Shown here piece after piece: positions 8,678 to 44,095 of a DNA stretch of 46,002 nucleotides (within the stretch, counting starts at the first letter, position 1; each line of letters starts with the position of its first letter). The notes beneath the pieces are model-generated. The model was not told the DNA's origin. It ran no database searches and saw only the letters and a list, made by a program, of their open reading frames with translations. This stretch comes from Planctomyces sp. SH-PL62 (lineage in GTDB: Bacteria; Planctomycetota; Planctomycetia; Planctomycetales; Planctomycetaceae), in contig CAMDPX010000028.1 in assembly GCA_945905295.1 (NCBI GenBank), forward strand, positions 1 to 46,002, written 5' to 3'. The position numbers were made by a program, and so were the translations under genes.

Positions 8678-11600
8678 TCAATCGGCCAACTCGTGAATGG
8701 TGTTGTGGATCGTGCCTTGGACCGGTGTGCCTGTGGCCGAGCGGAGCGAGAATTTGATTTCCATACACCACGTCGATCGTAGGTCGGCGACATCGAGTGT
8801 GACGGTCTTGGAGTCAGCCGACAACTTCGCGCCGCGGACTTCCAGAGGCTTCTCGCCGTAGTGCTTCGATCCGTAATCCGCAGTCCGCTTGAGCGACCAC
8901 GTTTTGACTTGCAGATTCTTGACGTCGAGCGATGCCGGATCGAGAGGCTCGGTGAAGGTGAGCTTCAGTCCGGACTTGGTGGCGTGCAGACCGACCGGCA
9001 AGTGCATGGGCTGGCCCGTGGCGCGGAGGCGATACAGGCCGCCGGGATAGGTCGCGTTGCCGGCCCAGGCGAACATGCCGCACAGATAGAGTTGCCCGTC
9101 CGTCGGATGAAAGCGGCCGCGCATCACGCCGGTCGGAAACAGCGGCAACGGCAACTCGATCATGCCTCCTTGCATCGTGCCGCGCACGTTTTCGTGTGGC
9201 ACGAGAAACACTTTGCCGTAACCGTAAGACAGATTCAGCAGCGATCCCTTGAGCGGTCCCCAGCGATCGCTGTCGACCCACAACAGCTCGGCGGGCGAGC
9301 GGTCGAAGGCGTTGGTGATCCAGCACAGCGGCGGGACCATCGCGGAATCCGACGAGTCGCTCACGTCGTGATAGCCCAGCATGTTGCCATAAAACTTGGG
9401 TTTGCCGGACGGGTCCACCGTGACCCAGTTGATGCGATTCTTCGGATTCCAAAAGCCTTCCTGATCGGTGACGACAAACGAGCCATCGGGATTGAGGCAG
9501 ACTCCGTTCGCCGCACGAAAACCATTCGCCAGGATGTCGGTGCGCGAACCGTCTTTGCTCACGCGCAACAGCGTCCCGTGATGCGGCACGACGGCCGCCT
9601 TTCCGTGGCAGCCCGACTTGGCATAGTAAAAATTGCCGGCCGCATCGGTTTGCAGTCCCATCGCGAATTCGTGGAAGTGCTCGGTGACCTGATGGTCGTT
9701 ATTGAGGCACTGGTAGAAGTCGATCTCGCCGTCGCCGTTGAGGTCATGCAGAACGGTGAGTTGATCGCGACACGTCACATGAATCTTGCCATCGACGATC
9801 TTGAGCCCCAGCGGCTGGAACATTCCCGAGGCGATCCGCTGCCATTGGAGTGGGGGGGGGAGGGGAGGAGTGGAGGCGGGGAGGAGGGAAACACTTGAGC
9901 CTTTACTCCTCCCCTCCTCTCCTCCTCCCCTCCCCCCCTCGACAATCCACACATCGCCGTCCCACGAGCAGACGGCGATGCGGCCATCGGGAAAGAAATC
10001 GAGCCCGGTGAATCGAGTCTGAGCGAGCCACGGATTCGATTCGGGAGCCGTCAGCACATCGGCCGCAAACGGCCCGTTGTCGGCACCCAGCACCGCATGA
10101 GTTTCCAACTTTTGCGGCCAGCGCGGCGGGCCGCCGTTGGTCAGCGCGGTCAGATCGCGATCGGCGTCCGAAATCGGCTGATCGGCAAGATCGTCGATCC
10201 GTGCGAGAGAGTTGTCAGTCTTCGTGAGCGGCACGGCGCTAGCCGCCGGTGTTTGCCGAGGACCGGCGGCTAGCGCCTTGCCGCTCACTGAATCGGACGG
10301 CTGCCAGATGGTGAATCGCAGCGGTTCCTTGCCAGCGGGGATTCGCAGTCTCAATCGTCCGTCAGCAGCCGTCCATTCGGCAGCGATGTTGCGCGGTGCG
10401 AATCCGGCAACAAGCGGACCAGAAGGCGAACTGACGGGAACCATGCCGCGCCGGACTTCGGCATCGTGTCGATGATTCGTCGCGTCGGCGATCTTCGTTC
10501 CTGACGCTTCGCCGAGCAGCCATTGCGCGACGAGCGATTTGTCGTCGGTCGTCGGCTTCGCGAAATCATCCAGCCCCTCGGTCAGACGCCGCTGATAGAA
10601 ACGGACCTGCGAGATGTCTCCTTGGAAGAACGTCGCCGGGCGCGGGAAATCGGGAGTCGTGAATCCAATCCGCACGACGCTCTTGGGCAATGCAGCCTTC
10701 GCAGCCAGCGCGCCCTCGCCATCCAGCTTGCCATCGACGTACAGCCGCACGCGATGCTCGGACCGCTGCCAGGTCAGCGCGACGTGATGCCAGCGGTCGT
10801 CGTTGATCTTCGACTTCGCCGAGACCGCACCGACCCAGCCGATATCGAAGGCGAGCCGTCCATCGCGAAGGAAAAACGTCTGCCCGTCGGGAGTCCACTT
10901 CGGCCCGGATTGGCTCAACGACCAAATCGTTCCGTCCGCTTTCGTCTTGATGCGGGCGACGATCGTGAAGTCCCGCGCCGTGAGGTCAAATGCCTCCCCT
11001 TTGGGGATCTCCAAATAGGTGTTCCCATCGAAGGTCAGTCGTTGGTCGCGAGGGGAGGTCGCTTCGGAACTCGGCGGAGCGAACTGCACGACCGATTTGT
11101 CCGAGCGGCTGATGATTGTCGGTCGCGCGTCGTGCGCCGGATGCTCGGCCACTTGCAGCAGCAGGTCGCGATCGCGCGGCCCGATGTTGAACGTTCGCAG
11201 AAACAGCGGTGCTTGGTCAGAGCCCGTAGCCACGCTCGCCGTAGCCACGCTCGCCAGAGCGTGGGACGTCGCGGAAGAACCCACGCTCTGGCGAGCGTGG
11301 CTACGATCCGCGACCACCGCCTCGCGCGTCAGCAGCCGCGGCGACTCCAGCACCTCGGTCGTGCCGATCGAGTACGAGAAGACCACCTGCTGACCGTGGT
11401 GATACAGCCCACGATAGTTGGCCCACTCGCGCGGCAACGGGCCGTAGCGTTTGCCGTCGCGGCCTTTCACACGCAGGTCATCGAGAAACTCACCGCTGGC
11501 CGGATTCGCCCAGCCTGGCCCGGTCGAGTTGGCGAATGCCGTCTGCCCGACGATTCGCGGATGCACGCCGTGCGCGCCGTTGAATTGAATCCCCTGCCAG

Positions 11601-17541: not shown

Positions 17542-17582
17542 GATGCGCCTTGTTGATGAAATGCAGAACGGAGCAGTCGCCG

Positions 17583-17653
17583 CTATTCCTCGATCGTCAC
17601 TTCGCAGAACGTCAGCGCGGCGAGGCCGTTCTTTCCGTAGAGCAGGTTGTCGG
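17583..17653 (-). pseudogene. Relic of esterase-gene 3' end
   Basis: 69 nt (17585-17653) match the 3' end of the SGNH esterase gene (18981-19049) at 66 positions, in the same orientation. The relic reads LLYGKNGLAALTFCEVTIEE and stops with TAG. Similarity ends abruptly 3 nt before the inverted repeat at 17657. It is either a duplication made when the cassette between the copies arrived or the remains of a paralogous gene. Confidence 0.75.
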
Positions 17654-17656
17654 AGA

Positions 17657-17754
17657 GGGGTCAGGCACCGCAAAATTCAAAATTGGCGGGACGGAGCTTA
17701 TTCGGCTCACCAAACTTTCTCCCGCCAATTTTGAATTTTGCGGTGCCTGACCCC
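17657..17754. repeat. 35-bp perfect inverted repeat (GGGGTCAGGCACC type)
   Basis: Perfect arms at 17657-17691 and 17720-17754 around a 28-nt spacer. Each arm starts GGGGTCAGGCACCGC and continues through an AT-rich AAATTCAAAATT core. It sits between the esterase relic and the nucleotidyltransferase cassette, upstream of the ROCO gene. Confidence 0.9.
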
Positions 17755-18978: not shown

Positions 18979-21900
18979 TTATTCCTCAATCGGCACTTCG
19001 CAGAACGTCAGCGCGGCGAGGCCGTTCTTGCCGTAGAGCAGGTTGTCGGGATTCCAATTCGCGCTATCGAGATAGGTCACGGTCTTGGATTTCGCTGGTC
19101 CCTTCAACTTCAGGGTGATCTTGTTGGCGATCGCAGAGCCCGAAGCGACTGGCTTGGGTTCGCCGTCGAGGTGGAACTGACTCACCAGTGAGTCGGACCA
19201 GGCGATCGGTTGATCGAACTCCAGCACGAGTTCGTCCCGTTCCTGGTTGGCGAAGAGCGCTCGCTTTAGGTTCGGCGGTGTGATCGGTTGGTTGATCTTT
19301 CGATGATAGAGATCGAGTTCGATGAGCGGCTCGATCAGTCTCGCGAACTCGGCGTAACCGGCGGCGGGGAAGTGGCAGCCACCGGGTGGCTTGATGCCCA
19401 GCGTCGACATCACTCGCAAGTTCGAAAACAGATTTGGCAGCGTGCGTTGCACTTCACGCAGGCGATTGTCCGAACCGTTGATCCCCATCGAACAAGACTT
19501 CGGCCAGATTTGAAACACGTAATAGTTTTGGACGTTGGGAAAGTCCTGCTTCCACGACGCGGCGAGATCGACGAAGAACTGGCGATAGGTTTCGTAGCCA
19601 TAGCCGCCGGTCGGGCCGTCGGCTCCTTGATCGTTCTCGCCTTGATGCCAGAGGACGGCGCGGATGCCGTGAGTCAGCTTGGCTTGTTGGACTCGCCACA
19701 GCAGCCGGCCGTAGATGGTCGACACGTCGGTCGGGTCGAGCGGGTTGCGTTGATGCTGGTCGATCCGCGTGCCGCCGACCGCTCCGTTGATGAGGCAGAT
19801 CGGAATCTGGTGTTGCTCGGACAGGCGGCGTCCGAGTTCCATCCCCCAATAACCGATCTCCGACTTGCCGCCGGGACTGCGAGCTTCCGCATTGGCCCAC
19901 AGCTTCAATCGCGATCCGTTTGGATCGCCCGCCGTCGCTCCGAACGTGCGGACCCACTCGCTGGGGACGAGCGGATTCTCTTTGCCGAAGTCGGTCGCGA
20001 CGGCATTCGACTGACCGATGATGAGGAACGCATCGCCGCAGACGATGTTCTTCGCCGTGTGCAGAACAGTCTCTTTGTCGCCGGTCTTCGTGCCGAACTC
20101 GGTGCGATATTTTGTGAGTTGGGCCTTGAGCTTCACCGACAACGAATAACTTTTGTCACTTGGCGAGCCGGAGGGCGTTAGCCCCCGGACGTTTGGCGTT
20201 GTCCGAGGGCTAACGCCCTCCGGCTCGCCTGGTTTCGATTGGTTAATTTTTGGCGCAGGTTTCAGCGGACTCGTCTCAGTCGCAAAGAGTTTGTCGTCCG
20301 CGAAGACGCGCACGAAGACGGAGTCCGCTGCTTCGGTGAGCGTGCCGGCATAGACCAGCGTTCCTTCGCGCTTGCCGTCTCGGCCGGTTCCCTCGCGCGC
20401 GATGAACTGGTTGTCTTCCGGTTGTTCGTTCGCAGTGAGCGGTCGTGGAATCCATTCATCTTGGCTCGGAGGCGGTTCTTTCACGGCGATCGTGATCGAC
20501 TGAACGATCTTCGCGCCGCCGTTGTCGATCGCCGCTGTCACTTGCAGAGTGCCGCTCCCTTGAGCGCGTTTCAGGATCAGTTTGCCGGGTTCGATCTGCT
20601 TGATGACCGCGATGTCGTCGATGGTCCAACGGACGTTCAACGTCCCTGCCCCTTTGGCCTGCATCGCCGCGAGGTTCGTGATTTGCGGCACGACTTCGAT
20701 CGTCTGCCGTCCGTCCCAATTCTTGGGTGCGGCGAGCGTGAAGACCGGTTCGGGGATGTCGTCGCTGATCGTGATCTTGATCTCTTTGGATTTCACTCCG
20801 TTGGGGTAGATGGCTTTGACGGCCAGCGTTGCTGTGTCGCTCCGCGACTCCGAATCCGAGTTGCGGAGCAACTCGGCTACGTGGGGCACACGCCCGGCGT
20901 TGAACGTGTACGAGAACCGATCCGTGGCCACGACCGATTCGTGTCCGTCGCGTTTCAGAATCCACACGACCTTCTGAGCGCCGCCTGCTTTCGCTGACAC
21001 AGTCGTGCTCTGACCTTCTCCTACCACAAGCTGCTGCTGCGATACCGAGAACTCGTCCCCCGGCTGCACCAGCGGGCCGACCAGTGTTTGGTTTGGCTTC
21101 TGGTTCGCGTACTGCAGCTTGATCCAATCCGCCGAGCGAACGACTTGCGAGACGCGCACTTCGTCGAGGTCTCCCACGAAATCAAAATTGTTGTACCAGC
21201 CGCCGATCCACAGCCGAGCCGGCGTTCTGATGTTGAGCGTCGGGCCTTGCTTGAGATTGGTTCCTTCCAGCACGCCGTTGACATAGATCTTCGATTCCCC
21301 CTCGCGATAGGTGTGAACGACGTGCGTCCAATCGCCGAGCGGCACACGGCTCTCGCTCCCCACGTTGCCGCCGGAGAAGTAGCAGTCCATGCGGATGTGC
21401 GGCGGGCTGCGGAACTGCATCACGACTTTCCCTTGAGCTTGCTCGTTGCCCCAGGCGATGAGCGTCGTGTTCGGTCGCTCGGGACGGAACCAGGCTTCGG
21501 TACTGTGAGGGCTCGCGCCGGTCGGATAGTTCGCGATCTTCTCGCCGCCGAAGAGGCCCTTGCCGCCGGGAAGATGCCGAGCCGTTCCGATCATGCCTGC
21601 GGTCGGCGTCGTGCCGTTGTCGGTGCTGGTGAGCGTTCCGACTTCGTCCCGCGCGTCGTTGCTCATGTGCCAGACGCTGAGGTATCCGTTCGACTCATTG
21701 AAGACGGCTTTGCCAGCGGACTCGCTGCTCGCGTTCGGGTTTCCCCAATGCAGCTTGATCTCCTGCCGCGAGTTTCCCGTGATCTTGGGGACGCGCACCC
21801 AAACGCTCGCGACCCCCTTGTCCGCGTCCCAGTCCTCCACTTGATAAGCCAGCGGCTCACCGGTGCTCGACGAGAACCGCACGTCGTCGCCATTGGGTTT

Positions 21901-24388: not shown

Positions 24389-24463
24389 CTCTTTTTTCTG
24401 TCCCCATTTTTCTGTCAGCTTCCGTCAAGCGACTGACAGAAAAATGGGGACAGAAAAAAAGAG
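24389..24463. repeat. Inverted repeat, CTGTCCCC type, between PSD1 and DUF1501 genes
   Basis: Arms at 24389-24418 and 24433-24463 are complementary except for one extra base in a T/A run. The core is CTGTCCCCATTTTTCTGTCAG on the left arm's last 21 bases less one. It lies in the 132-bp gap between the two genes, so it could attenuate or process their shared transcript. Confidence 0.85.
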
Positions 24464-24497: not shown

Positions 24498-27400
24498 TCA
24501 ATCCACATACACGAATTCGTTGGCATTCAGAAGCATTCTGCAGAGTTGGTTCAAGCCACGACTTCGCAGCAGTGTCATAGCCGCGGCGGCTTCCATTGGT
24601 GCTGGCTGGCGACCGAAGGCGAGTTGGAATGTGCGAGTCACTTGCGCGACCGGGTCTGTTCCCGCATCGGCCTTCACTCGGCTGGCGAAGTAGCCGCTTT
24701 GGCGCAACATGAAATCGTTGTTGAGCAACGTTAGCGATTGCAGCGCGGTGGTCGTCGTGTTGCGAGCAGGGACCAAGTTCGCGGGACTCGGACAATCGAG
24801 CGTTGTCATGAATTGGTGAGTCGTTGTCCGCACAGCAAAACGATAGACACTGCGTCGCCACAGGTCGGGCGAGTCGGGCGTGATGTAGCGATAGACTGGG
24901 GCGTATTCCTCTTGGTACTCGAAGTCGCGATAGCCGGGGCCGAACATCGTGGCGTTGAGCTTGCCGCTCACGGAGAGGACCGAGTCTCGCAAGGACTCGG
25001 CATCCAACCGGCGCGGGTTCATTCGCCAGAGGAGGCGGTTGTTGGCGTCGATGGCGAGGGCTTGCTGGGAGGGCGAGGCTCCCGCCGAGCCGGTGTTCTT
25101 GGCGGCGCGACTGCCGAACGGCTCGGCGGGAGCCTCGCCCTCCCGTCGCGGGGCATTGTACGACACGGATTGCTGCCGATACGCGGCACTCGTGCAGATC
25201 AGGCGATGGATGGCTTTCAGCGACCAGCGCTGTGCGAGCAACTCATCGGCCAGCCAATCAAGCAACTCTGGATGCGATGGCAGACCACCGCCGAGTCCGA
25301 AGTCGCTGGGTGTTTCCACGAGGCCGGCACCGAAGTGGTAATGCCACAGCCGATTCACAATGACTCGGCGAGTCAGCGGATTCGCGGGGGAGGTGATCCA
25401 ATCGGCGAGTGCTTTGCGACGGTCTCCATCGGAGGACTGCGACGTGCCGAGCTCCGGCTTTAGACCGCTGACGCACGACAGCGACGTTGGCGAAACCTCA
25501 TCGGCCGGTTGTTCGGGGTCGCCACGTTTCAGCAGCTTCACCGGCGGCGGAGTTTCGGTGATCACGGCATAGACTTTCGTCGGCATGGGAAACGCCGCGA
25601 GTTCCTTCTCCAACACTGCACGACGTTGTTGCAGTCGCGCAATCTCAGCTTTGTCGGCTTCAGACATTGCGGGGGGCTGAGCGGCGGCCAGCCACGGATC
25701 GGCGAAACAAATCTGGTCGTGCCCGATGCCGTTGCCACCGTCGGTGGACATCAGCGTGAGAAACCGCGCGGTGGCTGGAAGCATCACTTCGACCGCGAGG
25801 CCGCCATCGTCTCGGCCGATGTTTTTCTGGTTGGCCTTCAGTTCGCCATCGACGTACACGAAGTAGCTCGCGCCGTTCTTCGGCGTTTGACCGAAGTACC
25901 CGGCGGTCGCGGTGAACTTCATTTCTGCGGAGGCACCCGCTTCGCGCGTTGCCCGTGCTTGAATAGGCGAGCGGGGCGGCGTTAGCCCCCCGGTTGTTTC
26001 GATTTCCGGTGAAGACCGGGGGGCTGACGCCGCCCCGCTCGCCGAAGCGTCCGCGTTGAATGACGCTCGGATTGCGGCGAGATCGAAGGTGATCGCGGCG
26101 TTGGCGTGCAGCGACAGCAGTGTGTGACCATCGGCCGCGTAATCGACGCCGTCGAGCTTCGTCGAGAAGTGCGAGTTGACCGGTCCGAAGCGGATCGCAT
26201 CCCACGCTTGTCCCGAAGTGCGTGGCGGCTTCATCACCTTCAGGCCGGTCGATGTGATCTGCGTTCCTTCTGGCGAGAGATCGGGGATGACGACCCCATC
26301 CACGAACTTCACGGTCGAGCGGGCAAACACATTCGGCTTCGCTCCTTCGAGGAACCCGCGCTTGGGTGCATGAGGCTGACCGGTGACTAGGTCAATCCCC
26401 TCGCCCAGCTTGCCGGTGCCGAGTCCATCGCCGCCCCCCACGATGTCTGCCAGATCGAATTGCCGGCCGCTGAGCTTCGCCTGTTCGATGCGGACCTGTT
26501 GCAGTTCGGCGTTCAACGCTTGCTTGCGAGCGGCGAGGTCTCGGACCTCGGCCGCGCTGACGTCACGCTCGCCGCGCTTCACTCCCGCGAAGACGGCCGA
26601 CAGACCGTAATACTCGCGCTGCGAAATCGGATCGAGCTTGTGGTCATGACACCGAGCACAATTGATCGTGACTCCGCAAGCCGCCGTCATCACCTGCGTC
26701 AGCATGTCGTCGAGATCGTCCGCGCGAGCCAATCGCTTCAGCACCGGACTGGGAGTCTCCGCCTGCCCGACGAAATCCCACGGACCCGCCGCGAGAAATC
26801 CGGTGGCGATGACGGCCTCGGGATCGTCGGGCCGCAGCACGTCGCCGGCGATTTGGTCTCGCAAGAAGTCGTTGTATGGCTTGTCGGCGTTGAGCGCCCG
26901 AATCACCCAGTCGCGATAACGCCACGCGTTGTCGCGCCGCTGGTCACGCTCAAAGCCATGCGTGTCGGCGTAATGAGCGATGTCCAACCAATGCCGCGCC
27001 CACCGCTCGCCGTAATGCGGCGAATCGAGCAACCGATCGACGAGTTTTTCGTAAGCCTGCGGATCGGGATCGCTCGCAAATGCTTCGACCTCTTCCGGCG
27101 TCGGCGGCAGTCCGAGCAAATCGAACGTCAGCCGCCGAATCAGCGTTCGCCGATCGGCCTCTGGCGACATCGTCAATTCTTTCGCGATGAGCTTTGCTTT
27201 GAGAAACGCATCAATCGGATGTTCGTGACTTGGCGGCGTCACTCGTTTGATCGGCTGCCACGCCCAATGCTCGCGGCGCTTGTCATTCGCCGCCGCTCGA
27301 TCCGCATCCGATTCCGGCCAGACCGCTCCCGCATCAATCCACGCTTTCAGCGCCACAAGTTGCTCGGGCGTGAGCGGCTTCCCGTTCGGAGGCATCCGCT

Positions 27401-27668
27401 CGTCATCGTTCATGCTGGTGACTCGCCGCCACAACAGACTCTCGCCGCTCTTCCCAGGGACGATGACCGCACCACTCTCGCCGCCACGCAGAGCCAAGCT
27501 CTTCGCATCCAGTCGCAATTCCCCCTTCTGCTTGTTCGCACCGTGACAGGCGACACAGCGCGAGGTGAGGATCGGTCGAATGTCTCGTTCAAACGAAATC
27601 TCATCCGCCCGTGCCGACGACACGACCACCGCCGCAACAGAAAACAGAACGAAGCCAGCGCGCTTCAT
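24498..27668 (-). CDS. PSD1 protein: cytochrome c, DUF1549, DUF1553
   Basis: 1056 aa from ATG at 27668 (MKRAGFVLFSVAAVVVSSARA), where a signal peptide starts; upstream in-frame codons are not signal-like. A planctomycete cytochrome domain carries CVACH at 37-41. DUF1549 covers about 146-360 (LIRRLTFDLLGLPPTPEEV). A carbohydrate-binding-like insert follows, then DUF1553 at about 743-1036 (PLTRRVIVNRLWHYHFG, with the late LTLLNNDFMLRQS block). Family length is about 900-1100. Two hairpin doublets are translated as linkers near 542-568 and 842-867 (EGEAPAEP...GSAGASPS). It forms a pair with the DUF1501 gene at 22893. Presumed periplasmic redox role; the exact reaction is unknown. Confidence 0.9.
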   Translation of the reverse strand: MKRAGFVLFSVAAVVVSSARADEISFERDIRPILTSRCVACHGANKQKGELRLDAKSLALRGGESGAVIVPGKSGESLLWRRVTSMNDDERMPPNGKPLTPEQLVALKAWIDAGAVWPESDADRAAANDKRREHWAWQPIKRVTPPSHEHPIDAFLKAKLIAKELTMSPEADRRTLIRRLTFDLLGLPPTPEEVEAFASDPDPQAYEKLVDRLLDSPHYGERWARHWLDIAHYADTHGFERDQRRDNAWRYRDWVIRALNADKPYNDFLRDQIAGDVLRPDDPEAVIATGFLAAGPWDFVGQAETPSPVLKRLARADDLDDMLTQVMTAACGVTINCARCHDHKLDPISQREYYGLSAVFAGVKRGERDVSAAEVRDLAARKQALNAELQQVRIEQAKLSGRQFDLADIVGGGDGLGTGKLGEGIDLVTGQPHAPKRGFLEGAKPNVFARSTVKFVDGVVIPDLSPEGTQITSTGLKVMKPPRTSGQAWDAIRFGPVNSHFSTKLDGVDYAADGHTLLSLHANAAITFDLAAIRASFNADASASGAASAPRSSPEIETTGGLTPPRSPIQARATREAGASAEMKFTATAGYFGQTPKNGASYFVYVDGELKANQKNIGRDDGGLAVEVMLPATARFLTLMSTDGGNGIGHDQICFADPWLAAAQPPAMSEADKAEIARLQQRRAVLEKELAAFPMPTKVYAVITETPPPVKLLKRGDPEQPADEVSPTSLSCVSGLKPELGTSQSSDGDRRKALADWITSPANPLTRRVIVNRLWHYHFGAGLVETPSDFGLGGGLPSHPELLDWLADELLAQRWSLKAIHRLICTSAAYRQQSVSYNAPRREGEAPAEPFGSRAAKNTGSAGASPSQQALAIDANNRLLWRMNPRRLDAESLRDSVLSVSGKLNATMFGPGYRDFEYQEEYAPVYRYITPDSPDLWRRSVYRFAVRTTTHQFMTTLDCPSPANLVPARNTTTTALQSLTLLNNDFMLRQSGYFASRVKADAGTDPVAQVTRTFQLAFGRQPAPMEAAAAMTLLRSRGLNQLCRMLLNANEFVYVD
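25068..25143. repeat. REPIN-like doublet, GAGGCTCCCGCCGAGCC family, in CDS
   Basis: Perfect 24-bp inverted arms at 25068-25091 and 25120-25143. Each arm carries a GGCTC / GAGCC stem. It is translated as EGEAPAEP and GSAGASPS in the DUF1553 region. Confidence 0.85.
25966..26043. repeat. REPIN-like doublet, GGCGAGC head, in CDS
   Basis: 29-nt arms at 25966-25994 and 26015-26043 with one mismatch (GTTA versus GTCA loop). Translated in frame between DUF1549 and DUF1553 of the PSD1 gene, ending TGGLTPPRSP. Related to the element at 36769-36852. Confidence 0.85.
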
Positions 27669-27864
27669 GACCGTCACTCGGTTTCTGCCACTCTGCATGG
27701 AAGTGTCTCGTGCGCTAGTCCTCAAACAAGCGATACCGCCCCACTCACCGAGACAAGCTGATTGCTCTCGACACAACTCAACGACCGAGTCCCTGGTCGA
27801 TGCTTGTCTCTTGGAGTGCTTCTCTGATTCTTGTATTCGCTGTCGATCTCTCATTCCAGGAAAA

Positions 27865-27926
27865 GAGGGCGATGCCGACTGCGGTGAGCAGGCCGACTGC
27901 AGCGAACGCGAAGGCAGACACAATGG
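27865..27926 (-). pseudogene. Relic A of a small hydrophobic protein
   Basis: Within the 346-bp gap 27669-28014. Read on the - strand it gives IVSAFAFAAVGLLTAVGIAL, continuing FSWNERS to a stop near 27780. No ATG is in frame upstream. The 62-nt core matches 30440-30501 at about 53 positions. It is either a short membrane peptide with a non-standard start or a remnant. Nothing else was seen in the gap. Confidence 0.45.
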
Positions 27927-30622: not shown

Positions 30623-33600
30623 TTAGCGAGCGGCACGTTTCTTCCGCTTCGGTTCCGTAAACAATCCCCCGCCGCCGGTTGCGGAGGTAATCCGAGTGTT
30701 CGGCAGAGCCTCTTCGAGGATCGAGAAGTCGGTGCTGCTCAGGTCTGCCATCATGAAGGTCAACTCGGTGAGTTGCTTGAGTTCCTTGAGTGCGGAGTAG
30801 CCACCGCTCGACGAGAAGTTGGTGAGCCACAACGTGCGCAGGTTTGGAAGAACCTTCAACTTCAGCAGGCCGGAGACGGTGAAGCTCGCTTGGGGAAGAT
30901 TGCCCGGAATGACAAATCCCGGACGGCCGCTCCCGTTGATGTCGAGGCGCGTCAGTGACTTAATCTCGGCGATGTGCGCCAACGATTCGTCGGTGAGTTT
31001 TGAGGCTCGCAGGCTGAGATGATCCAACTTCGGCAGCGTTTTGACGTGTCCGATGCCGGTGTCGGTGATGATGTGGCTGTCGATGTTCAATCGCTTGAGC
31101 TCGGTGAGCCCGGAGATCGCTTTCAGACCATCGTCGGTGATGCTCGTGAAGACCAACTGCAACGATTGCAGTTGACGGCACTCCGCGATGCGCGCCGCAC
31201 AGGCGTCGTCGGCTTCGATGCCCAAGCTCAACGACTTGAGCCGGGAGAATTGCAGCGTCTCCGACGAAATGCCTTGTCCGACGAGATGCAGGTGCTCCAA
31301 TTCCTGAAGCCCCGCCAGCGACTTGGTCGCTTCTTTCGAGAATCGCATCCATCCCAATTCCTGAGAGCCGACGTAGGCATTGAGTCCGAGATGTTTGAGA
31401 CGTTTCAGCTTCGCAATCGAGGCGATCGCCGCGTCGGTCAGCCGGCCTTCCTGATACACATCCAGGTGCGTGAGCTGCGGCATCTGTTCGAGCAATCGGA
31501 TGCCGGCGTCGGTTGTCCCGCATTCGTGCAGATGAAGTTCTCGCAGCGACTTCAATCCGACGATGTGCTTGAGCGCCTCGTCACCGAGTCGCTCTCCGGC
31601 GGCGCTGAGGCTCGACAGCGTGAGCTTTTCCAACGCCGTCAATTGGGCGAGGTGAGCCAACCCGGCGGCCGTGATCGTCTTGGTGTAGCCGATATCGAGT
31701 TCTCGCAGTTTTGGAAGCGTCTTGAAACGCGCGAGCAACTCATCCGTCAGAGCCCCACTCGCGTAGATCGAGAACACTTGGTTGTCATCGTCGATATTGG
31801 CGAGCAGGCCGTGGTTGTAGGGCGGTTTTAACCAATCCGGCAGCGCTTGCTCCGTTCGCTCCTGCTTCGCCTCGATTGTCGAGAGAGACAACGCTCCGCC
31901 ACGCAGTTCACGAAACACGCCTGGATGAGAATTCCAATCGATCAACAGTCCTAACGCAGAACTCAGCGGCTCGTCCTTGAACGCGACTGTGACCGGCTCC
32001 TCCAAATCGAGTTCGGCCTTCTTCAGCGCCGGCTCATCGAGCTTCAACGGCACTCGCGCCGCTTGAGCCAACTTGGCCAACGCCTCGCGCAGCGGCAGCT
32101 CCTTCACGTCGAGCGAGACTTTTCGTTCAAACACTTCCTCGCTTCGAGCCGTTTGATCGGCGAGCGATTCATTTCCCTTCTGCGGCTCTGCGGGTTTTGA
32201 TTCGACTTTGGCCTGAGCGTCGTTCGCTTTGTCCGCTTCCAGTGCGACGTCGATCATGCGGTCTTCACCCTCGGTGACTTTGACCGTGGATTGCCAAGGC
32301 TTGAAGCCGGGGACATTGAGCTTCAGCAGAAGGTCGATGTCCGGATGCACGTCGAACCAGAGTTGGCCAACTTCTTTCTGCAGGAATTGATTGGATGGCA
32401 GGCGAGCACCGGCTTCGTCAGCGGCTTTCTGATCGGCGAATTGCGGTGTCGACAACGCTCCCGCGATTTTCACGGGCTGTCCGTTGTGTGTCGCACGCAG
32501 CGTGATCGAAGTGGCTTTCAGCGAGCGAACGTGAAACGAGACGCCGTCCTTGTCGAACTTCGTGGTGGACCACGCCGAGGTCGGTGATGAGTTCGGTCCT
32601 TCGCGAATGATGCGCAGGAAACCGCCCAAATCGGCGTTCTGGTCAATGCGGCCTTCAAAACCGCGAGGGACTCGCAGTTCATAGAGGCCGGGTTGGTCAG
32701 TCACTTCGCGAAGTCGGCCCCACCAGCTCGCTTTACCGGCGGCTCCGTTCACCGACAGGGTGCGACCGCTCACCGGTTGATCGTCGCTCGTCGTGTAGCG
32801 AGCGGTCATGCGCACGGACTCGGTTGGCTTGAAGTCGAGTTGTTGTTCGGCCAGCGCGGTCTTGGGGAGATCCACCAGTTGATGAAGATAGACGTCGGGA
32901 AGTCGCACACCGTCTTTAGGGAGATCGGGGAAGCGGCCTTCGTCAAAGAGTTCCACGACGTATTGTCCGTACTGACACGGCGGGAGCGAATACCGCCCAT
33001 CGGCATCCGTCATCGCGTATCGCGGGGGCACTCGACTGCTGCCGTTGGCTCGGATGGCGACCCCCGCGACGCCGCGGCCTTTCGCATCGGTCACTCGCCC
33101 AAAGAACCGAGTGCCGCGCTGCAGTTGGAACACCGGCTGCTCGCCGATTTCCGGAGTGATCCCTCGCGACACCGCCGCCGCATGATTCGGGATCACAAAG
33201 ATTCGACCGCGATCCCCATCCGGAACAACCAGCCGATAGCGGCCGTTCGCATCGGTCGTCGTCTTGTGAGCGGAATCGGTCTGCCAACTTTGCGGATTCC
33301 GGCCGGTGAAGATCGCGATTCCTTTCGCCGGTCGTCCGTCGATGTCCAACACTTGCCCGCTGACGATTTTTCCGGGGACCAACTCCACCTTGCGAATGAA
33401 GGCGTGAGCGTGGTTCGGTTCCTTGTTGAACAAGAGATGCAGCGGCACGGCACCCGGCCGGGATATCTGATAGTCCGGATGCTCCGCAATCCGTTCGACG
33501 AACAAGTCATTTGTTTGACCCTTGACCGCCTCCGGCAGCTTAAACGTGAATCGCCCGACATTGCGAAAGACCAGTTCCGCCAGCCGCTCGTTGTTCCCCA

Positions 33601-36600
33601 GACCATCACGCAAAGTGCCGAACCGAAATCGAACGGTCGCCCCTGCGATCGGCTTGCCGGTGACGGAGTCGATGACTTCGCCTTCGATGGGTGCCAGCGA
33701 CTCGGCTTTGCTCGCTGGGGTCTGAGCCGCTTCGTTCGGTGCCTGCGCTCGGCGCGGGTCTCCCGACCCCGCCGCTGGGTTGGACCGCTGGTCTCCGTTT
33801 GTGTTGTTCGTCTCTTTCGTTGCTTGCTCCGAATCCGGGAGACCTGCGGTCGGGTTGAGGGCGGGGTCAGGAGACCCGCGCCCAGCGCGCGCGCCCACCT
33901 GAGTCGCCGCGGCCACTTCAACCGTCAGCACGTTGGAGTTGGGGGTGAGCGACTTGCCATCGTCCGACTTCTCTCCTGGGCGGTCTTGAGTCCATTGGAC
34001 AAGGTATGTTCCCGGTTGCTTGATCGAATATTCGGCAGCCAGATCGAGTTCTTCGATGAGCACGACGGGCTTGTGCTGTTCGGCGGTGACGATGGTCTCA
34101 GAGGGTTTTCGTTCGCGGTTGATCGGCGACATCTCGCGGCCGTCGGGACCGATCACCACCAGCGAACATCGAGCGGGTTGCGCGAACGTGAACTGCATTG
34201 GCTCCGGTTTCGCCGCGTTGAGCAATTCGAGCTTCAGTTTGAGCGGCTCGCCGACCTGCGGCTTTTCGGTGAGCGAAGTCAGCCGTGTTTGCCAGACGCC
34301 GCGAATCGGACCCCAGATGATGACGTGGTCCGAGCGTGTGAGTTGATAATTCCGGCAAATGACTGCGAGCGTCTGGCGTGCCGCATTGCGAGTCGCCTCG
34401 GATTCCGAGCGGCACGGTTCGTCAAAATGTCCGTGGCCAACAGCAAACAGAAAGCGTGTGGACGCCACGCAACGACGCAGCACGTCTCGTCCCGGCTCAT
34501 GCGACGCCTCGGCGAGAATCGTGTTGACGGCGGTATCGAAGGAGTGATTGAGGCTCAGCAAGTGGCCCGCCGCGAGCACTCGACATTCGGCGTCCGCGTC
34601 CTTCAATCGCGGCACGAGTGCCGTCTCGAATTCTTTCTGCTGCGCGACCGTCAACCGCGACGTGTCAATCAAAGTTCTTCGCAGCGCGCGACGGCGCGTT
34701 TCGACATCAGAATCGGACATCGCCAAGACCACAAAGCCGAGCGAATCGCCGAGGTCACGAATCATCGTCGACGCCACTGTTCGCCGAGCGGGGACCGAGA
34801 GCTTGGGATATTTCGCGACCAGTTCTTGCCACACGCCAGCGTCAAAACCCCAGAACAAGTTCAACCAATGATTCGTCAGCGTTTCGTCCTTGCGATCCAA
34901 TGCCGACAGCAAGAACGGCAACGTGCTGAAATCCTTGCGGCCGATCGCAATCAACGCTTGCCATGCCGGGTACGCGACACGTCCATCGCTTGAGCGCGTC
35001 AATTTCTCCAATCCGGACTGTGCGACTCGCGCATCGCTTCCGAAGGTAACCAACGCTCGCGCCGTCAGACGCTGGACGACGACGTCATCGCTGCCAAGCA
35101 ACTCCGCCAATCTGGGGATCGCTGTCAGATCCGACTTCTCCGGGCTGCCGTTCAGCAGAGCCATCCATCGCACGGACGCATCGGCCTTCTGCAACTTGGC
35201 GAAGTCATCATCGAAGCTGCGCGGAATCGGCCCGCCTCGTTTGCGAATCTCGTCCGGAGTCGCAATCAGCAACACTCCCTGGTCGATGCGCGAACTCAAC
35301 TTGGCCTGATGCAAAATCAACGGCAGAGCATCCGCGTGTTCGACCCCGAACATTCTGCTCGTGATCGGCGTCTCGGCCGCCTCTTGAGCGGACGGATGCA
35401 ACTGAATCGTGATATCGTGGTAATCGCTCAGATAGCTCACGACGTCCGACAACGGCAGGTTCTCAAACGCAATTTCCGTCTTTTCACGCAGTGCCGCTTC
35501 GATTCGCCGGTTCGCCTGTTTGATCTTCTCGGCCGCTTCCGGGCTTTTGTCCGCCGTGATCTTCAAAACGTCGTCTTCGATAACCAGTGCGAGCTTCTTT
35601 TCGCCGAAGTCTTCCAGAATGATTTTCAGCGCGTTGCGAAGTTTGACGTCCTTAAAAGTGCGCGAGATGGCGAGGTCTTGCCTCACGTTCAATTCCGACA
35701 ACGCTGCAACATCAATGATGATGGGAATGTGGTGTTGTTTGGCGACGAGCACGATCACGTCACTCAACGTCAGAGCTTTAATGGTCAGCGACGTGGTCCG
35801 TTCCAATTCCTCCAGAATCCGAGCCTCAACAGCACTAACCTGCGCTCGGCGCGGGTCTCCCGACCCCGCCGCTGGCTTGGACCGAAGGTCTCCGTTCGTA
35901 TCGTTGGCCGACTTCGTGTCTTGCTCCGCATTAGGGAGACCTGCGGTCGGGTCGAGGGCGGGGTCGGGAGACCCGCGCCCAGCGCTGTCGCCGTCTTCCG
36001 CGAGCTGCATTTGCAGCTCGGCTTGCGACGACGCGGAAGATATGAACGTGCCGAGAGCGATCGTCAGCAGACAGCCAAGCGTCACGAATGCGACGAGCCA
36101 CCGGTCGCTCAGTCGGACGACCGCATGTTCGGGAGCGATTCCCACGATCCGCCGAATGCGCGCGAGCAGCGAACCATCCGCCACTCCAAGTGCCAACACC
36201 GTGCTGCGACCACGCAATTCTTCGATTGCCAACAACGCGCGGCCGTACTCGATGCGATTCCCGAACGACGCCACCACGAGGTCATCGCAGCAGTGCTCCC
36301 GTTCGACCCGAATTTGATGCGACAGCCACCACACCGCCGGGTGATAAAAGAAAAACGTCTCGACCAGCGTCTGCAACAGGTTCACCACGAAATCATGCCG
36401 CCGCACATGAGCCAACTCGTGAGCCAAGATCGCTTCCAACTGCTCAGCCGGAAGACTCGTCATCAAGCTGACCGGCAGCAAAACCACCGGCCGCAGATAA
36501 CCGACGACGATCGGAACTTGAGCCAATGTCGATTGCAACACGGTCACCGCCCGACGCAATTGCAATCGCTCGGCCACGCGCCGCAGCGTCGCGAGTACCT

Positions 36601-37180
36601 CCTCCGAAGCTGGCGACACACCGACCCGCTTCAGCCGCCACAGCATGTGCCAACCGAACAACGGCCTCAGCGAGCAGACCGCCACACCGATGCACCAGAC
36701 CGCGACGATCCACATCAGCCACGGATGCAGCGCCGTCTTCGCGCGCTGAGACCAAGACAACGCCTCATGGCGAGCGGGGGGCGTCAGCCCCCTGGTTGTC
36801 TCGGAGTCGAGCGACGTCTCCATCACCAGGGGGCTAACGCCCCCCGCTCGCCTGGTGTTTGTGGCAGCGTCCGGGGTCGGGTCTTCAAATTTCGTTGTGC
36901 TGGTGAGCCGGAGGGCGTCAGCCCCCGGACTGGTCGCGTGAACCACGTCAGGTCCGGGGGCTAACGCCCTCCGGCTCGCCAAGTCATCGCGCGTGATCAA
37001 CCACGTCACCAGCGGCACAACAACCATCACTCCCATCGCCACGACATGGACGCCGTATCGAGCCGCCGATGAACTTCGCCGCATCGCGCGAGAGATCGCT
37101 CCCGCCAGCAGCGCGACGAGCGCGAACTGCCACAACGAATGCACCAACACCCAACCGAGTCGCTCAACAAGCGGATTCAT
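30623..37180 (-). CDS. BlaR1/MecR1-type M56 peptidase fused to STN, HEAT, Ig-like and LRR domains
   Basis: 2185 aa. Residues 1-380 are an M56 sensor peptidase: membrane helices near 10-30, 43-62, 153-171 and 362-380, zinc motif HELAH at 254-258 followed by RRHD, and a downstream REREHCCDD block. Then come secretin/TonB short N-terminal-like domains (about 455-650), HEAT-like repeats (about 680-950), carboxypeptidase-regulatory Ig-like domains (about 1165-1500), a further STN-like domain (about 1655-1740) and LRRs (about 1770-2150). The start overlaps the BlaI stop by 4 nt. In characterised relatives an outside signal activates the peptidase, which inactivates BlaI. The large C-terminal part is probably the sensor. 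Four hairpin doublets are translated as linkers (about 67-93, 110-137, 399-446 and 1098-1145). Confidence 0.85.
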   Translation of the reverse strand: MNPLVERLGWVLVHSLWQFALVALLAGAISRAMRRSSSAARYGVHVVAMGVMVVVPLVTWLITRDDLASRRALAPGPDVVHATSPGADALRLTSTTKFEDPTPDAATNTRRAGGVSPLVMETSLDSETTRGLTPPARHEALSWSQRAKTALHPWLMWIVAVWCIGVAVCSLRPLFGWHMLWRLKRVGVSPASEEVLATLRRVAERLQLRRAVTVLQSTLAQVPIVVGYLRPVVLLPVSLMTSLPAEQLEAILAHELAHVRRHDFVVNLLQTLVETFFFYHPAVWWLSHQIRVEREHCCDDLVVASFGNRIEYGRALLAIEELRGRSTVLALGVADGSLLARIRRIVGIAPEHAVVRLSDRWLVAFVTLGCLLTIALGTFISSASSQAELQMQLAEDGDSAGRGSPDPALDPTAGLPNAEQDTKSANDTNGDLRSKPAAGSGDPRRAQVSAVEARILEELERTTSLTIKALTLSDVIVLVAKQHHIPIIIDVAALSELNVRQDLAISRTFKDVKLRNALKIILEDFGEKKLALVIEDDVLKITADKSPEAAEKIKQANRRIEAALREKTEIAFENLPLSDVVSYLSDYHDITIQLHPSAQEAAETPITSRMFGVEHADALPLILHQAKLSSRIDQGVLLIATPDEIRKRGGPIPRSFDDDFAKLQKADASVRWMALLNGSPEKSDLTAIPRLAELLGSDDVVVQRLTARALVTFGSDARVAQSGLEKLTRSSDGRVAYPAWQALIAIGRKDFSTLPFLLSALDRKDETLTNHWLNLFWGFDAGVWQELVAKYPKLSVPARRTVASTMIRDLGDSLGFVVLAMSDSDVETRRRALRRTLIDTSRLTVAQQKEFETALVPRLKDADAECRVLAAGHLLSLNHSFDTAVNTILAEASHEPGRDVLRRCVASTRFLFAVGHGHFDEPCRSESEATRNAARQTLAVICRNYQLTRSDHVIIWGPIRGVWQTRLTSLTEKPQVGEPLKLKLELLNAAKPEPMQFTFAQPARCSLVVIGPDGREMSPINRERKPSETIVTAEQHKPVVLIEELDLAAEYSIKQPGTYLVQWTQDRPGEKSDDGKSLTPNSNVLTVEVAAATQVGARAGRGSPDPALNPTAGLPDSEQATKETNNTNGDQRSNPAAGSGDPRRAQAPNEAAQTPASKAESLAPIEGEVIDSVTGKPIAGATVRFRFGTLRDGLGNNERLAELVFRNVGRFTFKLPEAVKGQTNDLFVERIAEHPDYQISRPGAVPLHLLFNKEPNHAHAFIRKVELVPGKIVSGQVLDIDGRPAKGIAIFTGRNPQSWQTDSAHKTTTDANGRYRLVVPDGDRGRIFVIPNHAAAVSRGITPEIGEQPVFQLQRGTRFFGRVTDAKGRGVAGVAIRANGSSRVPPRYAMTDADGRYSLPPCQYGQYVVELFDEGRFPDLPKDGVRLPDVYLHQLVDLPKTALAEQQLDFKPTESVRMTARYTTSDDQPVSGRTLSVNGAAGKASWWGRLREVTDQPGLYELRVPRGFEGRIDQNADLGGFLRIIREGPNSSPTSAWSTTKFDKDGVSFHVRSLKATSITLRATHNGQPVKIAGALSTPQFADQKAADEAGARLPSNQFLQKEVGQLWFDVHPDIDLLLKLNVPGFKPWQSTVKVTEGEDRMIDVALEADKANDAQAKVESKPAEPQKGNESLADQTARSEEVFERKVSLDVKELPLREALAKLAQAARVPLKLDEPALKKAELDLEEPVTVAFKDEPLSSALGLLIDWNSHPGVFRELRGGALSLSTIEAKQERTEQALPDWLKPPYNHGLLANIDDDNQVFSIYASGALTDELLARFKTLPKLRELDIGYTKTITAAGLAHLAQLTALEKLTLSSLSAAGERLGDEALKHIVGLKSLRELHLHECGTTDAGIRLLEQMPQLTHLDVYQEGRLTDAAIASIAKLKRLKHLGLNAYVGSQELGWMRFSKEATKSLAGLQELEHLHLVGQGISSETLQFSRLKSLSLGIEADDACAARIAECRQLQSLQLVFTSITDDGLKAISGLTELKRLNIDSHIITDTGIGHVKTLPKLDHLSLRASKLTDESLAHIAEIKSLTRLDINGSGRPGFVIPGNLPQASFTVSGLLKLKVLPNLRTLWLTNFSSSGGYSALKELKQLTELTFMMADLSSTDFSILEEALPNTRITSATGGGGLFTEPKRKKRAAR
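33744..33888. repeat. Long hairpin repeat, GGCGCGGGTCTCCCGACC family, copy 1
   Basis: Outer arms at about 33746-33774 and 33860-33888 match at 27 of 29 positions. The element shares nearly all of its roughly 145 bp with 35842-35985 and is translated in the same frame: AGRGSPDPALNPTAGLP ... PAAGSGDPRRAQ. Confidence 0.85.
35842..35985. repeat. Long hairpin repeat, GGCGCGGGTCTCCCGACC family, copy 2
   Basis: Arms at 35842-35870 and 35957-35985 differ at one position. It is inserted between the M56 part and the first STN-like domain, and is read as AGRGSPDPALDPTAGLP ... PAAGSGDPRRAQ. It is the sister of the copy at 33744. Confidence 0.88.
36769..36852. repeat. REPIN-like doublet, GGCGAGC head, in M56 loop
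   Basis: 28-nt arms at 36769-36796 and 36825-36852, one mismatch (GTCA versus GTTA loop). It encodes AGGVSPLV ... RGLTPPARHE in the loop between the second and third membrane helices. Confidence 0.88.
36902..36980. repeat. REPIN-like doublet, GAGCCGGAGGGC family, in M56 loop
   Basis: 29-nt arms at 36902-36930 and 36952-36980. Same family as 20162-20229. It is translated in the loop just after the second membrane helix and lies 49 bp from the previous doublet. Confidence 0.88.
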
Positions 37181-42673: not shown

Positions 42674-44095
42674 TTACGCCAGAATCCCCTGCACGACTTC
42701 TCCATGCACGTCGGTGAGTCGGTAGTCGCGGCCTTGGACGCGGTAGGTGAGCTTGGTGTGGTCGATGCCGAGCAGATGCAGCGCGGTGGCGTTGAGATCG
42801 TGAATATGCACGGGGTCTTTGACAATGTTGTAGCTGAAGTCATCCGTCTCGCCGTGGACGTGGCCCCGTTTCACACCGGCACCGGCCATCCAGACGCTAT
42901 AGCAGCGCGGGTGATGGTCGCGACCGTAGTTGTCTGGAGTGAGTGCGCCTTGGGAATAGACCGTGCGACCAAACTCGCCGCCCCAGATGACGAGCGTGTC
43001 GTCCAACAGGCCGCGTTCCTGAAGGTCGGTGAGCAGCGCGGCGGTGGGCTGGTCGGTGTCGTAGCACTGGCTCTTGATCCCCTTGGGCAGGTCGCCGTGC
43101 TGGTCCCAGCCTCGGTGATAAAGCTGAATGAATCGCACACCACGCTCTGCCAGCCGGCGCGCCAAGATGCAGTTGGCCGCGTAGGTGCCGGGCTTCTTGG
43201 ATTCGGGACCATAGCGTTCGAAGATGCTCGCGGGTTCCTTCGACAGGTCCGCGAGTTCCGGGACCGCGGTCTGCATGCGGAACGCCATTTCGTACTGGTC
43301 GATGCGAGCCTGCGTTTCGGGATCTTGAGACTCGTCAAACTTCAAGCGATTCAGCGCGGCGACATCATCGAGCATCGCGCGGCGGCGATCGGTGGTGATG
43401 CCGGGTGGGTTCGACAGAAACAGCACCGGATCCTTTCCCGAACTGAACCGCACCCCCTGATGGCGCGAAGGCAGAAAGCCGGAGCTCCACATGCGCTCGT
43501 GCAGCGGCTGGGCGTTGGTCGGGCCGCTGGGTCGCGAGATCATCGCCACGAACGCGGGCAGGTCGGCGTTTTCCGAACCGAGTCCGTAAGCCACCCACGA
43601 ACCGAACGCGGGCCGGCCGCCGATCTGATGGCCGGTTTGCAACAGCGTCATCGCCGGGTCGTGATTGATCGCCTCCGCGTGCAGCGAGCGAATGACGCAC
43701 ATCTCGTCCGCGAACTTCGCCGTGTGCGGCAGCAGTTCGCTCAACCACATTCCCGAGTCCCCGTGCTGCTGAAATTTGTAGACCGACGGCGCGACGGGAA
43801 ATCGCTTCTGCCCGGCGGTCATCCCGGTGAGCCGCTGCTCGCCCCGAATGGACGCGGGAAGATCTTTGTCGAACTGCGTGACGAGCCCCGGCTTGTAATC
43901 GAGCAGCTCCAATTGCGAAGTCGCGCCAGCTTGCGTGAGCCAAATGATCCGCCGCGCCTTCGGCGTGAAATGCGGAGCGCGCGTGTCGGCGAACAGTTGC
44001 GGGTTCATCAACGACGCAAGCGCCGCGGCACCGATTCCCGTGCTGCTCAAGAAGTGACGACGAGAGAGTCCGGTCTGAAATGTGTCCGAGGTCAT
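42674..44095 (-). CDS. DUF1501 family secreted protein
   Basis: 473 aa from the ATG at 44095; another in-frame ATG at 44104 directly abuts AAGGA, leaving no spacer, whereas the second ATG has the same site at 9 nt. Tat-like signal (LSRRHFLSSTGIGAAALASL). Blocks: IIWLTQAGATSQLELLDYKP, DEMCVIRSLHAEAINHDPA, WGGEFGRTVYSQG and the terminal DLNATALHLLGIDHTKL. The upstream partner is the truncated PSD1 gene at 44181. The gap was enlarged by the hairpin doublet at 44111-44171, which duplicated the ribosome site region. Confidence 0.9.
   Translation of the reverse strand: MTSDTFQTGLSRRHFLSSTGIGAAALASLMNPQLFADTRAPHFTPKARRIIWLTQAGATSQLELLDYKPGLVTQFDKDLPASIRGEQRLTGMTAGQKRFPVAPSVYKFQQHGDSGMWLSELLPHTAKFADEMCVIRSLHAEAINHDPAMTLLQTGHQIGGRPAFGSWVAYGLGSENADLPAFVAMISRPSGPTNAQPLHERMWSSGFLPSRHQGVRFSSGKDPVLFLSNPPGITTDRRRAMLDDVAALNRLKFDESQDPETQARIDQYEMAFRMQTAVPELADLSKEPASIFERYGPESKKPGTYAANCILARRLAERGVRFIQLYHRGWDQHGDLPKGIKSQCYDTDQPTAALLTDLQERGLLDDTLVIWGGEFGRTVYSQGALTPDNYGRDHHPRCYSVWMAGAGVKRGHVHGETDDFSYNIVKDPVHIHDLNATALHLLGIDHTKLTYRVQGRDYRLTDVHGEVVQGILA

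Follow-up and report, generated by a model that had tools for sequence, protein, structure and literature searches.

The window, a 46,002-nt stretch of contig C28 of a planctomycete genome (8.6 Mb in 476 contigs), contains a giant gene for an M56 (BlaR1-type) peptidase in which four inverted doublets, two of a long family (L) and two short ones (S1 and S2), are read in frame (Table 1). Assignment of its product to the M56 (BlaR1) family rests on a match to Peptidase_M56 (PF05569) of 117.9 bits against a cut-off of 31; CarboxypepD_reg and LRR also scored above their cut-offs and HEAT_2 slightly below, and none of the four doublets overlaps any of the best Pfam stretches listed for the gene. The arms of L copies B and A are 29 nt long (93 and 97% complementary), and those of S2 and S1 are 28 and 30 nt long (96 and 93% complementary). 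The two L copies, 86% identical in DNA over 154 nt and spaced by 2097 nt (3 x 699), share one reading frame and 39 of 48 residues. Thus, the preliminary description was right to place four doublets in frame in this gene and to read nearly the same peptide from both long copies. It had also reported in-frame doublets in three other genes, where we found six, including the peptides GVSP..RGLTP and GEAPAEP..GSAGASPS.

In named genomes, the M56 protein identified one relative, a MAG contig (SYJG01000442.1, 'Planctomyces sp. isolate F1-80-MAGs005'). A structure prediction for residues 1-460, made from two input sequences with a mean pLDDT of 38, was set aside. The window carries other repeats as well: near its two ends, the stretches 455-640 and 43535-43720 form an inverted pair (186 nt, 72% complementary); a 75-nt unit is tandemly repeated over about 975 nt (16385-17359) within the gene at 14074-17673; and a 70-nt stretch is present twice in direct orientation at 96% identity (17584-17653 and 18980-19049), which is also found in eight compared loci.

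Table 1. Positions of the M56 gene and of the doublets discussed in the text, numbered from the first nucleotide of the window.
Feature	Position	Strand	Details
M56 (BlaR1-type) peptidase gene, giant	30623..37180	-	2185 aa, open throughout; best Pfam stretches M56 154-325, HEAT 689-767, CarboxypepD_reg 1361-1410, LRR about 1870-2080
Long doublet L, copy B	33745..33888	-	Encodes RAGRGSPDPALNPTAGLPDSEQATKETNNTNGDQRSNPAAGSGDPRRAQ in frame (aa 1096-1144)
Long doublet L, copy A	35842..35985	-	aa 397-445
Short doublet S2 (family 0)	36769..36852	-	Peptide RRAGGVSPLVMETSLDSETTRGLTPPAR; in frame in G005 and G008 too
Short doublet S1 (family 0)	36901..36981	-	Peptide LASRRALAPGPDVVHATSPGADALRLT; in frame in G005 and G008 too
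Purine/pyrimidine inverted repeat, in frame	9854..9938	-	Gene 8678-12919
Family-12 doublet VSGKALAAG..PAASAVPL, in frame	10224..10288	-	Gene 8678-12919
GTAG-tagged doublet, in frame	11240..11305	-	Gene 8678-12919
Family-0 doublet, in frame	20162..20229	-	Gene 18979-22791
Non-coding doublet, outside genes	24392..24459		Sole non-coding length comparison obtained
Family-23 doublet GEAPAEP..GSAGASPS, in frame	25067..25144	-	Gene 24498-27923, inside PSD1
Family-0 doublet, in frame	25966..26043	-	Gene 24498-27923 (PSCyt1/PSCyt2/PSD1 protein)

Doublet families and the position of in-frame copies

The window and 100 further stretches of its genome, chosen by place (2.036 Mb in all), contain 531 inverted doublets belonging to many families, the largest with 67, 32, 31 and 29 members; the inverted form was also the search criterion. 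The doublets were classed with a purpose-made frame-tracking gene finder, run with their sequence masked to keep it from influencing the frame. Outside the window, 437 doublets fall into families of at least three members: 113 are in frame within one gene, 29 lie in one gene with a stop, 46 show a change of frame, 24 fall between opposite genes, 48 at gene edges, 172 are intergenic and 5 are at stretch ends. Another 78 belong to no family of three, and 15 of these are in frame. Since 82% of the sampled sequence is coding, as called by the gene finder, genes are avoided, yet about one quarter of the family members are in-frame inserts. Extrapolation by length from the sample suggests about 490, perhaps 500, in-frame palindrome inserts in the whole genome.

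Two in-frame family-0 doublets lie in a UvrA-type protein (L108:17792-19999:-, with UvrA_inter and UvrA_DNA-bind), and one in-frame family-2 doublet lies in an Mfd/TRCF-type protein (L096:1536-5081). Doublets also cluster, three families being present in a BatA/VWA protein and three inserts of one family in a YHS/Fer4_5 protein (L119:2427-4826, L145:3546-5720).

The preliminary description placed all of the window's inserts in loops or at domain boundaries, and this stands in part. The four M56 doublets are clear of Pfam stretches, but the doublet at 25067 is inside PSD1 and some inserts elsewhere appear to split domains. Of the proteins of 150-1400 aa that hold 81 candidate inserts, 30 were scanned against Pfam, and 27 of these gave a match. 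Insert midpoints fell inside a listed Pfam stretch in 3 of 36 cases, one of them in a below-cut-off match, against 12.6 expected; avoidance is exaggerated by this count, since a match split by an insert is listed only by its best piece. On visual inspection, about five further inserts seem to split domains, namely an ArgZ-like domain (L091), PSD4 (L065), PSD5 (L174), SQHop_N (L159) and Pkinase (L104). We are accordingly unsure that inserts avoid domains. Distance to domain borders showed no significant difference (medians 53.5 vs 60, p 0.38; outside domains only, 53 vs 78, p 0.09). Inserts occupy loops inside domains as well as domain borders.

Translation, turnover and frame use of the inserts

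Eight coding doublets of the window could be compared in length with relatives of the genus (at one site also with a paralog); L copies A and B and the doublets at 12830 and 17657 yielded no comparison. All 36 coding differences are multiples of three; three are zero and the others represent 19 distinct non-zero states, or 18 if the state common to both S doublets is counted once. In contrast, at the non-coding doublet at 24392 the length differences from two relatives are 83 and 80 nt, and three divides neither. The earlier claim that the repeats are translated is borne out by this comparison, and sequence evidence of this kind supports reading them as translated in-frame inserts. The open frame does hold very stable hairpins, as might be expected if inserts were bypassed by a translational hop, removed from the RNA, or housed in dead genes; however, the divisibility of all 36 differences by three excludes these as general explanations, and the M56 domain of the same gene evolves with an omega of only 0.08-0.10, making this alternative exceedingly improbable.

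Comparison with relatives also reveals turnover at the insertion sites. All nine sequences compared at 20162 lack the doublet and are 99 nt shorter (they come from six other genomes, one of which contributes three, and from a paralog in the host genome). At 25966, the site is likewise empty in all four relatives compared, which are 123 nt shorter and have flanks 79-92% identical. These inserts are longer than the doublets themselves (68 and 78 nt), which leaves the moved unit undefined. The doublet at 10224 is present in G007 and absent from G003 and G005. At 9854, where the window has a purine/pyrimidine-run repeat that is no typical REP, G005, G007 and G004 have another hairpin, a single one, in the same place. 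The loop at 11240 lacks a doublet in G003, holds a similar doublet in G005 and one of another family in G007 and G010, and the loop at 25067 holds another hairpin in G010 and G007. Paralogs within the host genome likewise have differing families at one place, as judged by flank comparison (e.g., families 3, 12 and 6; families 23 and 8). Together, the other families found at the 9854, 11240 and 25067 loops in relatives, and those in paralogs, indicate that unrelated elements repeatedly strike the same loops. Unlike these sites, the S doublets of the M56 gene are common to the window, G005 and G008. For either L copy, no clean empty site was seen in relatives, where the flanks are rearranged.

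The gene-strand RNA of the four M56 doublets is predicted to fold with energies of -97.3, -103.6, -78.5 and -75.1 kcal/mol (z -10 to -13). Among the three orthologs of the S hairpins, 56, 52 and 49 of 57 pairs are standard; four base pairs changed on both sides, but two orthologs have 13 broken cells between them and the window copy has one, too many for covariation to be claimed. The strength of the folds and the two-sided changes could point to a role of the hairpins as RNA inside the frame, through ribosome pausing between modules or as RNase III sites. However, any inverted repeat folds strongly, S pairing decays in the orthologs while the frame is kept, and in relatives the same loops of other genes hold unrelated repeats or none; we regard such a role as quite unlikely.

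The rate of protein change differs between the inserts and the domain that they accompany. In comparisons of the window with G005 and G008, omega was 1.45 and 1.39 for S1, 0.44 and 0.25 for S2 and 0.73 for L copy A (G008 only), values that rest on short stretches with few changes, against 0.10 and 0.08 for 200 codons of the M56 domain. The label 'domesticated' that the linkers had been given is thus not borne out, and our main reading of these sequence comparisons is that the insert peptides are probably tolerated, with constraint relaxed in part of the inserts. Synonymous change in S1 (36901-36981; orthologs L121 and L122) looks low, with pS of 0.09 and 0.20 against 0.36 for the M56 domain over only 27 codons, possibly reflecting homogenisation of the arms.

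Frame use proved non-random beyond the avoidance of stops, although no one frame is general. Across ten families, the frames of upstream arms departed from a uniform distribution over the stop-free frames (total G 54.9, whereas 20,000 simulations reached at most 47.0). Most of the signal is due to families 1 (0:10:1, p 0.0006), 2 (9:2:0, p 0.002) and 23 (0:0:4, p 0.04); family 12 gave 5:0 (p 0.06), and family 0 (12:8:4, p 0.15), family 3 (6:6) and the remaining four families were non-significant. The set tested includes the window copies. Paralogy was rejected as the source of the bias, which stayed after six entries with shared flanks had been dropped by hand (five with homologous flanks within a family and one neighbouring S doublet); the count of 4/4 in family 8 is itself largely due to paralogs. 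For L, with loci gathered regardless of frame, 69 of 88 unique arms are open and genic, with frames of 19:13:0 for upstream and 27:8:2 for downstream arms, counts that are not independent because many sit in related M56 proteins. Codon typicality explains only part of the bias (2dLL 24.9; best-codon frame used by 50% of copies against 39% expected, with arms not independent). A target motif that fixes the phase was sought in nine families and rejected: flanks are little informative in families 3, 6, 8 and 12, modestly informative in the last bases in families 0 and 1, and the strong flank columns of families 2, 5 and 7 look like arm extension.

Two explanations for the in-frame copies had been offered, either that the elements evolved a stop-free frame or that only in-frame insertions at linkers survive. 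The first is contradicted by the openness of the elements, which falls slightly short of that of Markov-resampled sequence, with a mean of 2.95 open frames of six against 3.40 for intergenic copies and 3.37 against 3.78 for genic ones; in S1, the single open frame of six is the one used. A survival filter acting on stops, codons and residues suffices for the frame use seen, and an evolved open frame is unneeded. The second explanation fits best of those offered, with the amendment that loops inside domains are used too, and the frame bias was presumably caused by survival under purifying selection.

Selection may act on the encoded peptide itself, e.g., as a spacer of fixed composition; the biases of families 1, 2 and 23, which arise despite three open consensus frames, are in favor of this, as are the omega values of S2. 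Nevertheless, S1 has omega values above one, relatives have unrelated peptides in the same loop or empty sites, and the frame bias in part tracks codon typicality, so that we judge such domestication unlikely. In-frame insertion tolerated in permissive linkers fits best and is our main reading.

Family L and the module joints of M56 proteins

In the host genome, 14 of the 21 L elements examined lie within one gene, so the family is not mostly extragenic. Among the other doublets, 113 of 432 are in frame in one gene and 142 of 432 are in frame or with a stop (Fisher test against L, p 0.0002 and 0.003, respectively); single arms count among the L elements here, and the set was collected through its likeness to a genic copy, a procedure that may favor genic ones. 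L copy A is located behind a hydrophobic stretch (judged from sequence) downstream of the M56 domain and is common to the window and G008 (L122), with a different module following it in G008; for copy B, the module breakpoint relative to G005b falls 8 aa past its end.

With the L-bearing protein of the window as query, 12 M56-related proteins and fragments were retrieved; nine of these contain 26 L elements, called with up to five mismatches per arm, and three have none. With all doublets masked, 18 of the 26 were within 10 aa of a module breakpoint, against 8.1 for random placement (0 of 2000 as high), and at a limit of 20 aa the count was 20 (random 10.5, p 0.0005). In these proteins, with equal masking, other doublets were near breakpoints in 1 of 11 cases at 10 aa (random 2.7) and 4 of 11 at 20 aa (random 3.8), a weak control since the S pair of three orthologs makes up five of the 11 and some could be repeats by chance. 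A previous directed count was in agreement: 64 of 288 breakpoints lay no more than 10 aa from L, while shifts gave 16.3 on average and 42 at most. Counted as unique sites, 22 of 140 breakpoints are this close to L; therefore, a joint does not require L.

Both partners carry L at nine junctions, drawn from seven protein pairs. At eight of them the two copies align at 86-96% identity, and the ninth alignment covers only 9 nt. At two of these junctions, L is 91-96% identical while the shared flank is only 24-36% identical in protein, indicating that the modules had already diverged when L arrived there or was homogenised. The clearest case is a three-way pattern: G000c18 (at 789) and G002a (768) share the N-module and differ in the C-module after L, whereas G000c18 (820) and G005c (921) share the C-module and differ in the N-module before L, with L remnants 95-96% identical over 52-57 nt in both pairs. 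These junction patterns fit exchange at L and also repeated insertion at permissive joints.

The first of these possibilities would make L an in-frame recombination port, at which homologous recombination between L copies exchanges modules of giant M56 proteins and leaves the spacer at the joint. The proximity of L to breakpoints compared with that of other doublets, the three-way module pattern and the near-identity of L beside diverged flanks are all consistent with this proposal, as is the fact that many L copies are similar, genic and read in the same frame. On the other hand, linkers tolerate insertion and module change alike, so the two could coincide without cause, and most breakpoint sites are not near L. 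In addition, breakpoints in related proteins are non-independent, many of them representing one joint downstream of the M56 domain; the control is weak; the mismatches allowed make a few of the 26 L calls doubtful; L is read in two frame classes; and the protein set was retrieved with an L-bearing query. Chimeric assembly is a real caution, since the genomes compared are MAG-like and 145-nt repeats could yield false joins. On balance, module exchange at L is plausible, and the recombination port is a tentative proposal that we hold to be possible, though not probable. More doubtful still is the broader idea of L as a mobile translated joint, in which any two copies of a selfish palindrome, nearly identical in DNA and read in one frame, would recombine to an intact fusion, so that the giant proteins would exchange modules through ports derived from mobile elements.

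Mobilisation and relation to known systems

Candidate transposases were found for some of the families. Of 13 Y1_Tnp matches in the genome, ten loci were examined, and two of these contain an ORF with a doublet at each end, of family 2 at L238 and of family 26 at L240:1342-2403 (G000:C288). Both ORFs exceed the Y1_Tnp cut-off and match the REP-associated tyrosine transposase model NF047646 at 70.0 and 57.6 bits, below its cut-off of 80; the L240 ORF combines Y1_Tnp (28.4 bits) with Bac_DnaA_C (32.8 bits), both above cut-off. None of the ten loci places a transposase beside L or S. The GTAG or CGTC tag is absent from the L and S arms, and GTAG occurs in families 3, 8, 9, 10 and 19. L-like sequence is present in 19 of 120 genomes of the taxonomic family (E 1e-8), five of the 19 in this genus, and phage records searched with L gave no match.

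We propose that several families of small mobile palindromes (REP doublets or TIR elements), moved by RAYT-type HUH transposases, would insert genome-wide and that most intragenic insertions would be lost. Insertions that keep the frame in a loop or an inter-module linker would persist and be translated as a spacer of roughly 20-50 residues, and in giant M56 proteins the long family L would tend also to mark module joints. As a whole, this account appears highly probable to us; within it, the movement of the L and S families by RAYT-type transposases is presumed. The density of inserts allows measurement of how mobile DNA turns into protein, in terms of the frames and loops that are tolerated and the speed of insert turnover, and the planctomycete inserts could show whether one family helps to make new domain combinations. 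If L does so, bacterial domain shuffling would gain a concrete, searchable DNA seed.

REPINs are REP doublets that occur with a RAYT. The planctomycete families resemble them in being inverted doublets in many copies, with a doublet-flanked RAYT-like transposase for families 2 and 26, and L differs in its 86-nt spacer and its often genic location. TIRYT elements (TnpA-REP subclass 2.1) have a tyrosine transposase with Bac_DnaA_C between inverted repeats of consensus GGGG[AT][CG]A[CG] (PMC6006769). The L240 ORF, with Y1_Tnp and Bac_DnaA_C between doublets, shares this organization for family 26 only; family 5 matches the consensus (GGGGTCAG), whereas families 2, 26 and L deviate from it by one base (GGGGTCGG), and no transposase was found by L. 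Enterobacterial RU elements are small mobile sequences retained as protein segments in annotated genes (PMC2759123); they involve other sequences and other hosts, and a link to module exchange is absent from the portion of that account considered here. Rickettsia palindromic elements, palindromes of 100-150 bp fused in frame, include a translated insert in Gmk reported to yield an active product (PMC2229807). Our inserts likewise lie in frame in protein genes and differ in belonging to another phylum, with many families coexisting in the planctomycete.

The closest precedent is provided by intragenic GTAG/CGTC REPs, which are described as in-frame palindromes of 20-30 aa, over half of them dimers or groups, in unrelated proteins including UvrA (PMC3733652). 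The same work singles out DNA-repair genes among the REP-bearing genes, proposes flexible linkers and loops as neutral REP sites, reports REPs from Planctomycetes and notes different REPs at about the same site in recB of two Xanthomonas species (PMC3733652). Thus, in-frame REP inserts, their dimers, their neutral linker and loop sites, planctomycete REPs and REPs in uvrA are already known from this work, as are in-frame Rickettsia palindromic elements (PMC2229807). Our inserts share with GTAG/CGTC REPs the in-frame palindromic form, the dimers, the loop and linker sites and a UvrA host. They differ, relative to the sections considered, in the lack of a GTAG or CGTC tag in L and S, in their density in the planctomycete, in the proximity of L to module breakpoints and in single loops that have been occupied time and again, by a different family in one relative or paralog than in another (PMC3733652). 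A search of one open-access library listed no paper on REP-type elements or palindrome family at module joints of planctomycete proteins and, apart from the recB case (PMC3733652, as far as covered), no large-scale turnover of families at one loop across relatives or paralogs. Relative to these known systems, the less expected features are that relatives and paralogs can carry different families at the same loop and that L is located near the module breakpoints of giant M56 proteins.
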